From NCBI RefSeq assembly GCF_037572775.1, contig NZ_JBBHKA010000001.1:1488001-1552000 (forward strand): a stretch of 64,000 bases of DNA, written 5' to 3'. Shown here piece by piece: positions 3,158 to 6,308 of the stretch. The notes under the pieces were generated by a model that saw only the letters and a list, made by a program, of their open reading frames with translations, was not told the origin of the DNA and made no database searches. Both the position numbers and the translations under genes were made by a program. Origin of the DNA: Ramlibacter sp. PS4R-6 (GTDB lineage: Bacteria > Pseudomonadota > Gammaproteobacteria > Burkholderiales > Burkholderiaceae_C). How positions within the stretch are numbered: position 1 is the first letter of the stretch; the number at the start of each line of letters is the position of its first letter.

Positions 3158-3456
3158 CGGGCGGAAAAGAGGGCGGAGGAGTCGCCTTTGCCGGCCGTTA
3201 GGAAGTTGTTATCCGCCTGAATTTGGAAAAAAAAGCCAATGGTGGCGCGCCCCTGGCGAGCGCTGAGCCGCCAAGTTAGACGACTCGACGCGGTCAAACC
3301 CGACGCCCAAGTCGCCTTTGCCCCCAATTTCGTGTAGAGCCGCAGTGCCGCGTAGCGCGGCTCGCTGATATAAATCAGGCACTTGCGAGAGAAAAGGGGA
3401 GGCGCGATGAGCCGCAGTGAGATTTGTTATCCGACTGGTTTGCGGGCTCTATCACG
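3158..3456. other. Non-coding leader of the cassette island, possible attI remnant and cassette promoter
   Basis: No convincing gene is visible here. It precedes the first cassette boundary, the place where an integron has attI and its Pc promoter. Present are three GTTAG cores (3198, 3275, 3456), a repeated word TTGTTATCCG (3206 and 3424), a second repeated word GTCGCCTTTGCC (3181 and 3311), and a TATAAA box inside the inverted repeat CTGAT-ATAA-ATCAG (3365-3378), which could be a -10 element reading into the cassettes. No integrase is encoded on either strand. Naming it attI is inference. Confidence 0.35.
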
Positions 3457-3465
3457 TTAGAGCGC

Positions 3466-3825
3466 ATGGCACGCCGCAGAAGATCAGACGCCGCCCAGGT
3501 CGCCGAAGACACGGCGTTCATCGCGAACAAGCTCCCGTGGTGGGGCGCCGCCTTGTTCGGCGTGTTCTCGTTTGCGCTGTTCTATTGGCTGCTGCCGTGG
3601 TGGATCAACAGTCGAATTGAGATGGCGGGGAATTCCGCCCTGCGCCCGGCAATTGAAGCAATGCTCGGGAGGCGCATACACTGGTCGCAATACGTCGCAA
3701 TCGCTCTCGCATTGATTTGTGCTTTCTTTGCGGTGCGCAATTACTTTCGATCTGACCGATTGAAGTATCCAGAGGTCAAGGACGCCAGCTTCTTCGGGCG
3801 ACTGCTAGCCAGATTTCTAGATTAG
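3466..3825 (+). CDS. Cassette 1: two-helix membrane protein related to the N terminus of Mrr-type endonucleases
   Basis: Encodes 119 residues. It opens MARRRRSDAAQVAED, then has two predicted membrane helices (about residues 24-44, rich in W and F, and 75-92) and a basic tail. From memory of the family, many membrane-anchored Mrr_cat endonucleases start the same way (MARRRK..., then LPWW and two helices), but here the protein ends before any nuclease domain. It may be a stand-alone membrane module. The ATG lies 10 bases after the GTTAGAG core; a TTG at 3424 would place the start upstream of the cassette boundary and was rejected. No good ribosome-binding site is visible. Confidence 0.6.
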   Translation: MARRRRSDAAQVAEDTAFIANKLPWWGAALFGVFSFALFYWLLPWWINSRIEMAGNSALRPAIEAMLGRRIHWSQYVAIALALICAFFAVRNYFRSDRLKYPEVKDASFFGRLLARFLD

Positions 3826-3834
3826 GACTATGCG

Positions 3835-3923
3835 CTCTAACAAGGCATTCGACACGGGCGCCCAAGGGCGTCCGCGCCTGCGGCGCTCCGAGTTCCTTGG
3901 TCGCGGTCAACTCTACGTTAGCG
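3835..3923 (+). repeat. attC-like recombination site closing cassette 1
   Basis: The 89-base site has left core CTCTAAC (3835-3841) and right core GTTAGCG (3917-3923). Between them lie AAGGCATTCGAC near the left and GGTCAACTCTACG near the right, matching the layout of L boxes in attC hairpins. It resembles the third site of the array (5499-5588) through TAACAAGGC, GGGCGTCCGC and CTACGTTAGC. Recombination would fall between G3917 and T3918. Confidence 0.75.
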
Positions 3924-3927
3924 CCAT

Positions 3928-4842
3928 ATGCTCGATCGAATCACCGCACTCATAGACCGCTTGGCTGCGTGGAGCTGGCCGGTCAAGTTCGCGGTTGGCG
4001 CATCTGTAAGTGCATTCGCAGGAGGAGGAGTTCTGGCATTCCTGCTTCAAAACGCAGCCTATAACTTCTCCTTGACATTCGGCTTTCGCCCCGCGGTGGA
4101 GGGCATCCCATACCTGAGCGCACTCGTCACATTTTCTAGTGTCTCATTGCTCGTGATTGCGGCACTTGTCTCGCTGGTTGTGACGGTGGCAGGGAAGTAC
4201 TTCTTGCTCAACTTCATTGACTGGTTGGAGGCCAGAACACAGCGGTTTCAGCCGCAGACGTGGAGTCCGATCCCCTGGTTGCGGGGGCTACGCTTTTGGC
4301 CGGCCATGGCAGTTCTGCTGCCGTTGAACGTCCTTCTCGTTTTGACGGAGACCGCGGTTCTCCCGCGCTTTGCTCAACTTGATGCCACTTGCGCTTGGCC
4401 GCTGCTTCTTTGCACTCACGAGGAATTTCGGGGCCCTGAGTGGTTTGCGATCTCTTTTGCTGTCGGATTTTTCATCCTAATCATGCTGTGGCGACCTGCT
4501 TTGGTATGGCTCGCGACCTTAGGACTCGTGGCTATCTATTACGCATGGATCGGCGCGAATGTGCTCCCAGCTGATGGCTACGGTAGGCTGCTCCGAATGA
4601 CAGGTTTTGGCGGCGGAGTAAAAGTTACAGTGGAGGTGATAGAAAACGAAAACAAGCCGCCGCGCATTCTGGAAAGCTACCTATTGCTGCGGAGTTCGAC
4701 AAGTGTTTTCCTGTTCGATCCCACAAGCAAGCGCATTGAGGAGTATCAATTGGGAACGGTTCTCAGGTTAGCCCACACAGAGGGCGGGCTTCACGAGCTG
4801 CCGTACTCCTTGCCGCGCAAGGCGAACTTGATGCAAAGGTGA
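3928..4842 (+). CDS. Cassette 2: multi-helix membrane protein of unknown function
   Basis: Encodes 304 residues that I do not recognise. There are about five or six hydrophobic segments (roughly residues 17-40, 55-85, 120-145, 170-190, 192-212) and a C-terminal soluble part of about 85 residues (GVKVTVEVIENENKPPRILESY onwards in that region) that looks like a beta-rich domain. The start lies 10 bases after the attC core, with no clear ribosome-binding site, as is common for cassette genes that rely on an external promoter. The lower GC and its position between two attC sites mark it as acquired. Function is unknown; a transporter or a membrane effector are both possible. Confidence 0.6.
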   Translation: MLDRITALIDRLAAWSWPVKFAVGASVSAFAGGGVLAFLLQNAAYNFSLTFGFRPAVEGIPYLSALVTFSSVSLLVIAALVSLVVTVAGKYFLLNFIDWLEARTQRFQPQTWSPIPWLRGLRFWPAMAVLLPLNVLLVLTETAVLPRFAQLDATCAWPLLLCTHEEFRGPEWFAISFAVGFFILIMLWRPALVWLATLGLVAIYYAWIGANVLPADGYGRLLRMTGFGGGVKVTVEVIENENKPPRILESYLLLRSSTSVFLFDPTSKRIEEYQLGTVLRLAHTEGGLHELPYSLPRKANLMQR

Positions 4843-4852
4843 CGTGGGTGAT

Positions 4853-4933
4853 GGCTAACAGGTCAATCGACTCGGACACACACCTGCTACGTCTTCGGCG
4901 CGCAGGTGAGTGCCGGTCATCTTCACGCTAGAC
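4853..4933 (+). repeat. attC-like site closing cassette 2 (degenerate right core)
   Basis: The 81-base site has left core GGCTAAC (4853-4859) and a right core GCTAGAC (4927-4933), which departs from GTTRRRY at one base. The inner part folds strongly: CACCTGC pairs with GCAGGTG. ATGGCTAAC at its left end nearly complements the first bases of cassette 2 (GTTAGCGCCAT). Confidence 0.55.
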
Positions 4934-4946
4934 CTTAGGAGGCTCG

Positions 4947-5489
4947 ATGCCGAAAGGATCCGCTACCGGCGTGGACAGGCAGTATCAGCTTGACTGCCGA
5001 GATGTACTGACTTTTCGCGACGGGACACTGTTCCCTTGGTCAGGTGATGGGGTCGACGTACTCTTCAAACTCGAAGATACGGACTGGACCTTTGATGTCG
5101 CCCTGCGAGCACCTGATGGGAGTGCCGTAGTCGCCGAATGCAAGCGGCACGAGAGCGCGGTGAAACAGGGTGCTGTGGCGGAGTTCGCCTGGAAGGTCGA
5201 GCGCCTTCGCGAATATCTTGGGACGCCGGTATCGGGCATCTACTTTGGAAAGAGCGGGCATCAGCTAGGTGCGGTACGCGTGGGCGATTTCAGCGGTATC
5301 CAAGTAGTGGCGCTCGACGAAGCATCGACGCCTCCCGGGTTCAACATGACCTTCTACCGTTACGACGCAGCGAGAGAGAAGAAGCTGCGTGACATCATCA
5401 TGAGTGTTCCTCCTGGGCACATCGAGCTCACGGGGCACCCAGCCACCCTAATCGTTACGCGCAAAGATGGGACAACTGAGTCAAGATAA
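4947..5489 (+). CDS. Cassette 3: PD-(D/E)XK (Mrr-like) nuclease
   Basis: Encodes a 180-residue soluble protein with the restriction-endonuclease fold signature: Asp50 at the end of a beta strand (WTFDVALRAPDG), then Glu64-Cys-Lys66 in VVAECKRHES, followed by a helix AVAEFAWKVERLREYL and a strand GIYFGKSGHQLGA. This order matches the Mrr catalytic domain used by type IV restriction enzymes and other DNA-cleaving defence proteins. No DNA-binding domain is seen, so it may act with a partner. TAGGAGG at 4936-4942 is a good ribosome-binding site, unusual for this array. Nuclease activity is inferred from the motif; DNA repair is an alternative role. Confidence 0.65.
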   Translation: MPKGSATGVDRQYQLDCRDVLTFRDGTLFPWSGDGVDVLFKLEDTDWTFDVALRAPDGSAVVAECKRHESAVKQGAVAEFAWKVERLREYLGTPVSGIYFGKSGHQLGAVRVGDFSGIQVVALDEASTPPGFNMTFYRYDAAREKKLRDIIMSVPPGHIELTGHPATLIVTRKDGTTESR

Positions 5490-5498
5490 CTTGGACCG

Positions 5499-5588
5499 GG
5501 CTAACAAGGCCGTCAACACAGACGCCCGCGGGCGTCCGCTCCCGTCGGTCGCTGCTCTCCGAGGTCGCCGGTTACGTCTACGTTAGCC
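5499..5588 (+). repeat. attC-like site between cassettes 3 and 4
   Basis: The 90-base site has perfectly complementary cores GGCTAAC (5499-5505) and GTTAGCC (5582-5588). The inner arm ACGCCCGCGGGCGT folds on itself. Similarity to the first attC of the array supports common descent. This is the clearest attC of the three. Confidence 0.8.
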
Positions 5589-5636
5589 GGCATAAACGCA
5601 GATCTGTTCAGAATCGGAAACTGGGAGGAGGTCGCG

Positions 5637-6308
5637 GTGGCAAGAGCGAATATCGTATTTCTTGGGTGTAACTACAACGACAAGAAGATCAAGGGTCAGT
5701 TCGATAACTTAAAGAAGCGGATCGAAGCAGATACCCCGCTGTCGTGCATAGTGATCGACAAAAGAAGCAAAAAGCCAGCCCGCGATTTGTGGCAGGACAT
5801 CAAGAAGCACATCGAGGAGTCGGCGGCCTGCTTCTTCGATCTAACTGGGTTTCGTCCAAACGTCGTTCTTGAGCTGGGGTACGCTCTCTCCATCAAGGCC
5901 GAAGATCAAATTTTCATCACATTCCGTAAGCGCAAGACGAAAGGACGCGCGCCTGCGTGGCTACTCTCTGACATCGGTCATCTCAACAGGCACGAGTACA
6001 TCAGCATGATGCAACTCGAGTCCTTCATGCGCGATCAGCTCACCCAGATTCCATTTGCCGAAGGCACGCGGGAGTTCTGGGTCGATTGCGAAAATACGAA
6101 CGCCGCGGAGAAGTATCAGCAATACGGGCTCAGAATTCTTCAGTCCATTCGTGATAGTGGCCCTCAGTCAGAACAGCAGATTCAGCGAACTTTGCGCGGT
6201 TCCGCATGTCGACTTAGCAGAATGCTTTCCTTACTTAAGAAGAATAGGCTTATCGCACGTCCCCCTGGACCAAACGGCAAGTACCTGGTGCCTGAGCTTC
6301 CGGGTTAA
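5637..6308 (+). CDS. Cassette 4: TIR/nucleoside-deoxyribosyltransferase-like protein with C-terminal winged helix
   Basis: Encodes 223 residues from a GTG preceded by GGGAGGAGG. The first 110 residues look like a Rossmann-type flavodoxin fold: strand ANIVFLGCNYND, then Asp68 and Glu79 in FFDLTGFRPNVVLELGYAL. The pattern DxTGxxPNVxxELGYA is shared by TIR-like NAD-cleaving proteins and nucleoside 2-deoxyribosyltransferases, in which the Glu is catalytic. Residues 165-223 look like a winged helix (IQRTLRG, LSRMLSLLKKNRLI). A nucleotide- or NAD-hydrolysing effector with a nucleic-acid-sensing domain is a reasonable guess, fitting defence genes. The fold call rests on motif memory only. Confidence 0.6.
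   Translation: MARANIVFLGCNYNDKKIKGQFDNLKKRIEADTPLSCIVIDKRSKKPARDLWQDIKKHIEESAACFFDLTGFRPNVVLELGYALSIKAEDQIFITFRKRKTKGRAPAWLLSDIGHLNRHEYISMMQLESFMRDQLTQIPFAEGTREFWVDCENTNAAEKYQQYGLRILQSIRDSGPQSEQQIQRTLRGSACRLSRMLSLLKKNRLIARPPGPNGKYLVPELPG

Follow-up and report, generated by a model that had tools for sequence, protein, structure and literature searches.

The open reading frame at positions 4947-5489 (forward strand) of the window (the whole 64,000-nucleotide stretch of DNA that we analysed) had been annotated from its letters as a cassette-borne nuclease resembling Mrr, and the question raised by this locus is whether the frame does belong to an integron cassette, to which family its product can be assigned, and what such a protein may do for the cell. 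The reading that we hold with fair confidence is that it constitutes a cassette of a CALIN (defined as at least two attC sites with no nearby integron integrase; PMC9024848) and encodes a divergent, stand-alone PD-(D/E)XK nuclease of the Mrr_cat type, probably directed against foreign DNA.

Reading frame and cassette array

By direct reading of the window (4947-5489), the frame proceeds uninterrupted from ATG to TAA over 180 codons, and the ribosome-binding site AGGAGG (4937-4942, forward strand) lies 4 nt before its ATG. The features on which the initial annotation had built its prediction of a stand-alone Mrr-like PD-(D/E)XK nuclease were all found in place, namely D50 (codon 5094-5096), E64 (5136-5138), C65, K66 (5142-5144) and the GIYFGKSG stretch (residues 97-104), together with the length of 180 amino acids and the strong ribosome-binding site.

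The frame is the third in a block of four forward-strand open reading frames (cassettes 1 to 4) with three attC sites between them, all on the same strand: cassette 1 (3466-3825) ends in attC site A (3834-3925), cassette 2 (3928-4842) in site B (4853-4934) and cassette 3 in site C (5499-5590), after which comes cassette 4 (5637-6308). Ahead of cassette 1, the element GTTAGAGC (3456-3463, forward strand) is complementary to the R'' core GCTCTAAC at 3834-3841 and is likely the R' core that opens this cassette; the rest of an attC site was not recognisable upstream of that element, and no full attC site was found 3' of cassette 4. In each of the sites A to C, the R'' and R' cores are complementary, an L''/L' pair is present, and a C in L'' is left unpaired at one and the same position (column 17); the sites score 82-104 bits with a covariance model built from those three sites themselves. 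On an alignment of 10 distinct attC sites (model-fitted, which favours the signal), double-sided compensatory changes affect 5 of the 11 stem pairs, as compared to a mean of 2.2 in shuffled controls (0 of 500 as high) and to lower values in all slid controls; searches with Rfam yielded chance matches only. Moreover, the block has a lower G+C content (0.51-0.58; cassette figure, 0.576) than the chromosomal flanks (0.68-0.70). The earlier statement that the gene is cassette-borne is thereby borne out by a frame followed by its attC site, within a set of three sites that show the unpaired C and a covarying stem.

An integron integrase was not found in the genome, whose only two tyrosine recombinases were both read as Xer-type (by sequence and context), and an integron-integrase (IntI) fragment from another genome had no match there in a search that was run without a positive control. 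Given three attC sites and no integron integrase found, the array is a CALIN. The R' core of site B (4927-4933) reads GCTAGAC and thus begins with GCT in place of GTT, which may impair its recombination; the alteration, which falls where cassettes 2 and 3 meet, may lock both cassettes together. Furthermore, a search for promoter-like sites detected no sigma-70-like promoter in the array, so expression would depend on read-through from outside. A conserved empty site for the array could not be shown, the GNAT orthologues of four congeners having different neighbouring genes.

With the attC model, additional clusters came to light elsewhere in this genome (near C1:1680335-1682486 and C1:2009464-2011137), which represent two more integrase-less arrays (L095, G000:C1:1678500-1684500; L096, G000:C1:2006500-2013500). 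The open reading frames between their attC sites, as named by eye, are SnoaL-like, hydrolase, cupin, GNAT and small membrane proteins.

Family and predicted fold of the cassette 3 protein

The Pfam, NCBIfam, PHROGs and PADLOC models returned nothing usable for the cassette 3 protein, and the curated Mrr_cat model PF04471 (curated cut-off 21 bits) did not match it at E-values up to 10. The bridge to Mrr was provided by a weak tblastn match on a plasmid, a Pantoea restriction endonuclease that is itself recognised as Mrr_cat at 1.5e-8; in pairwise BLASTP, the Pantoea member of Mrr_cat (PF04471) and the cassette 3 protein align at E 1e-8. In line with this, hhalign of an Mrr_cat subfamily profile (nine plasmid-borne proteins from diverse bacteria and one archaeon) against the protein gave a probability of 96 and a score of 57.3, as compared to a mean of 12.0 and a maximum of 19.3 over 200 shuffles. 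An Mrr HMM built without the cassette 3 protein (33 sequences: 9 from plasmids, 9 from genomes of the order and 15 from viral contigs) scores it at 28.5 bits and places D50, E64 and K66 in the D, E/Q and K catalytic columns, as does a 16-sequence alignment. One MAFFT alignment had put D44 forward as the catalytic aspartate, a candidate that was dropped because the canonical Mrr sequences and the independent HMM point to D50. The motif argument of the initial annotation is insufficient alone, since the pattern D-x(8-20)-[DE]-x-K arises in 56% of shuffled cassette 3 proteins; the exact D-x13-E-x-K spacing is found in 3.6% of such shuffles.

Judged by profile comparison, the cassette 3 protein is homologous to the Mrr_cat subfamily, well above chance. 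As PF04471 misses it, we regard it as a divergent relative reached via a bridge subfamily and not as a profile-defined member; the earlier family call is, on these sequence comparisons, right in essence. The proposed Mrr-like core with D50, E64 and K66 is supported by hhalign, the independent HMM and the structural model.

The AlphaFold2 model computed with a 16-sequence alignment (the cassette 3 protein plus 15 Mrr sequences from viral contigs) attained a pLDDT of 74 overall and of about 90 over most of residues 40-122, and its core elements succeed one another as helix, three strands, helix, strand, helix, strand. A single-sequence model was set aside for its pLDDT of 38; its order of strands and helices over the core is similar. 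The predicted structure thus contains, with confidence over the core, the alpha-beta-beta-beta-alpha-beta arrangement expected of a PD-(D/E)XK fold, with PDB matches (Z 8-12.6) led by AF1548 (Z 12.6), NucS/EndoMS (11.2) and the Can2/Card1 group (Can2 10.5, Cdn1 10.3), and including the Mrr-like enzymes MspJI and AspBHI (8.3); as the sequences aligned had been chosen as presumed relatives, the fold supports the assignment and is not an independent proof of it. The further claim that the protein lacks a DNA-binding domain holds for known domains, none being recognisable as a target-recognition or DNA-binding domain by family models or in the AlphaFold2 model. The first core strand begins after about 35 residues, and residues 127-180 are modelled as a low-confidence helix plus strands, a segment that could hold a small accessory module.

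Close homologues of the cassette 3 protein were found neither in samples of 399, 369 and 398 genomes (from the order, class and phylum, with some overlap) nor in phages or plasmids, and peptide-pattern scans of 85,000 species genomes and of viral contigs, which need near-exact short peptides, recovered no relative; a ten-member alignment was too diverse for a scan pattern to be derived from it. Five weak genome matches (L002, L003, L007, L008 and L110) were dismissed, as they are located in or across unrelated genes. These searches thus yielded no close homologue that would show conservation of the triad within a family of the protein's own. The same genome encodes a second Mrr_cat protein (G000:C1:3417365-3417694, L028) in an open frame of 187 residues, in which a membrane segment lies ahead of the domain; it carries AQCTHW where its relatives have VQCKQW, so that the catalytic lysine appears to be lost.

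Neighbouring cassettes and the membrane partner

The initial annotation had suggested that cassettes 1 and 2, as membrane proteins, could provide the nuclease with a partner, and that cassettes 1-3 should be sought together in other genomes. Cassette 1 encodes a small membrane protein with two helices, whose family has links to restriction nucleases. Its two-helix domain corresponds to the N-terminus of TM-Mrr_cat-zinc-ribbon proteins (hhalign score 48, where hydropathy-preserving shuffles reach 24 at most; BLASTP 5e-9), and proteins of this build are common in the genus and the order. In three type I restriction-modification operons, a stand-alone homologue occupies the position between hsdS and hsdR (L069 5962-6339; L070 5962-6339; L080 6048-6413); the operons are those in Paracoccus pPAN1, on a Burkholderia multivorans plasmid and in genome G221, with a Pfam check of the operons of Paracoccus pPAN1 and G221. 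In all three operons hsdS ends in a one-base overlap with the homologue, which directly precedes hsdR; among titles and abstracts, we found no published account of a membrane protein in this position. Other homologues (47-48% identity) are themselves cassettes in two further arrays, one of which belongs to another genus, has an integrase-like gene and flanks the homologue with attC on both sides (L079, 6045-6416), the second being L082 (1114-1485).

Around these cassette 1 homologues, no relative of cassettes 2-4 was detectable nearby. Cassette 2 encodes a 304-residue membrane protein with no detectable relatives (in 0 other genomes of a 340-genome sample of the order, and none on plasmids). 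The proposal of cassettes 1 and 2 as partners is thus not supported so far; cassette 1 homologues occur without 2 or 3, and no evidence points to a single system made up of cassettes 1-3. Cassette 4 (223 residues) has a weakly TIR-like N-terminal half (PADLOC Effector TIR, 5.6e-7; Pfam CAP12-PCTIR below cut-off) and a C-terminus with a winged-helix-like match, and is possibly another defence-related cassette, to judge by these matches.

It could be argued that cassettes 1 and 3 are the two halves of a membrane-anchored nuclease, with the two-helix anchor encoded by the former and the catalytic domain by the latter, both of which elsewhere form one polypeptide (TM-Mrr_cat-zinc ribbon). The homology of cassette 1 to the N-terminal domain of such polypeptides within the same genus and order, and its stand-alone homologues in the type I operons, speak for this arrangement, yet no closeness of the cassette 3 protein to the TM-fused Mrr_cat subfamily could be measured (score 17, with shuffles reaching 22), the homologues in the two other arrays have no detectable relative of cassettes 2-4 in their vicinity, and every cassette, with an attC of its own, is able to move independently. 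We therefore consider the arrangement improbable. Sequence comparison does connect cassette 1 independently with restriction nucleases, but the Mrr_cat subfamily concerned is not the one that cassette 3 resembles, and a membrane partner for the cassette 3 nuclease is unproven. The broader conjecture, in which the two-helix family would serve restriction nucleases as an exchangeable membrane anchor (fused to Mrr_cat, encoded between hsdS and hsdR, or carried as a cassette) and cassettes 1 and 3 a split, shuffle-able nuclease cutting DNA at cell entry, is given equally little credence here. The three links of this small membrane family to restriction nucleases nonetheless furnish a concrete hypothesis on membrane-associated restriction.

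Possible function and comparison with known systems

Two other explanations concern the function of cassette 3 itself. The protein might be a repair or mismatch nuclease of the NucS/EndoMS type and no defence enzyme, seeing that NucS/EndoMS is the best Foldseek match of its model (E 2.9e-4) and the second-best by VIA-align (Z 11.2, 21% identity), and that a weak sequence match exists too. By sequence, however, the protein is closer to Mrr_cat than to NucS, and the nuclease domain of NucS starts near residue 126 (2vld), after another domain, while the cassette 3 protein has about 35 residues ahead of its own; we accordingly think a repair role very unlikely. It is also conceivable, if unlikely, that the cassette is a relic, intact in its open reading frame but silent, without selected function and kept in a decaying array, as the failure to find an integrase, a promoter-like site or a 3' attC for cassette 4 and the altered R' triplet of attC B would suggest. 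Against this reading, the open reading frame, the ribosome-binding site and the catalytic triad are all intact, whereas a silent cassette would be expected to decay.

We consider that cassette 3 most likely represents one more anti-phage or anti-foreign-DNA cassette and not a new kind of system. Its product would be a small metal-dependent DNA nuclease (by its family, with fold and active site computed), probably acquired by horizontal transfer and employed against foreign DNA, either in a type IV-like restriction or as an abortive nuclease. As it has no recognition domain, it may be a low-specificity homodimer, be restrained until triggered, or depend on a partner; specificity and activation could arise from dimerisation, from the C-terminal segment (residues 127-180) or from a factor of the host or the invader. 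The putative defence role draws on the Mrr family and on the load of defence genes in cassette arrays: those of Xanthomonas carry restriction-modification and other defence genes (PMC12444791), and about 20% of the V. cholerae cassettes without predicted function are anti-phage according to a study as cited in the same paper.

Among the known Mrr_cat proteins, the subfamily of Pantoea WP_172607963 and Acinetobacter WP_067663152 shares with cassette 3 the D-E-K triad, the PD-(D/E)XK core and the pattern ECK...V...F...G.....SG.Q.GA...GI. Its members are longer (about 270-305 residues, with a long C-terminal region), whereas cassette 3 has a different C-terminus of about 54 residues, a shorter beta hairpin (14 residues from D to E, as compared to 17) and a longer helix-strand loop. 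The type IV restriction enzyme Mrr of E. coli K-12 (EcoKMrr) has an Mrr-like catalytic core as well, but it combines an N-terminal winged-helix domain with a PD-QxK site (PMC12707154), while the cassette 3 protein is without this recognition domain and has an ExK site. NucS/EndoMS, the nearest solved nuclease by Foldseek, exhibits the same D-x13-E-x-K spacing, though it has an N-terminal domain before the nuclease domain that cassette 3 lacks, and the similarity is only local. The CRISPR ancillary nucleases Can2/Card1/Cdn1 resemble it in the fold of the nuclease domain (Z 9.5-10.5) and differ in having a sensor domain before it, for which the cassette 3 protein is too short.

At the level of the array, a literature search found no published description of an Mrr-type integron cassette. 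The locus differs from the defence-gene CALINs of Xanthomonas and Vibrio in having only three attC sites and a nuclease missed by defence-finding profiles; it is similar to them in its attC sites without a nearby integrase and in its restriction-type cargo. For many integron cassettes no function has been assigned, and cassette 3 goes undetected by the defence-profile library applied here. Taken together, a compact nuclease of 180 residues that is seen only via a bridge subfamily may serve as an example of the anti-foreign-DNA functions hidden among such cassettes.
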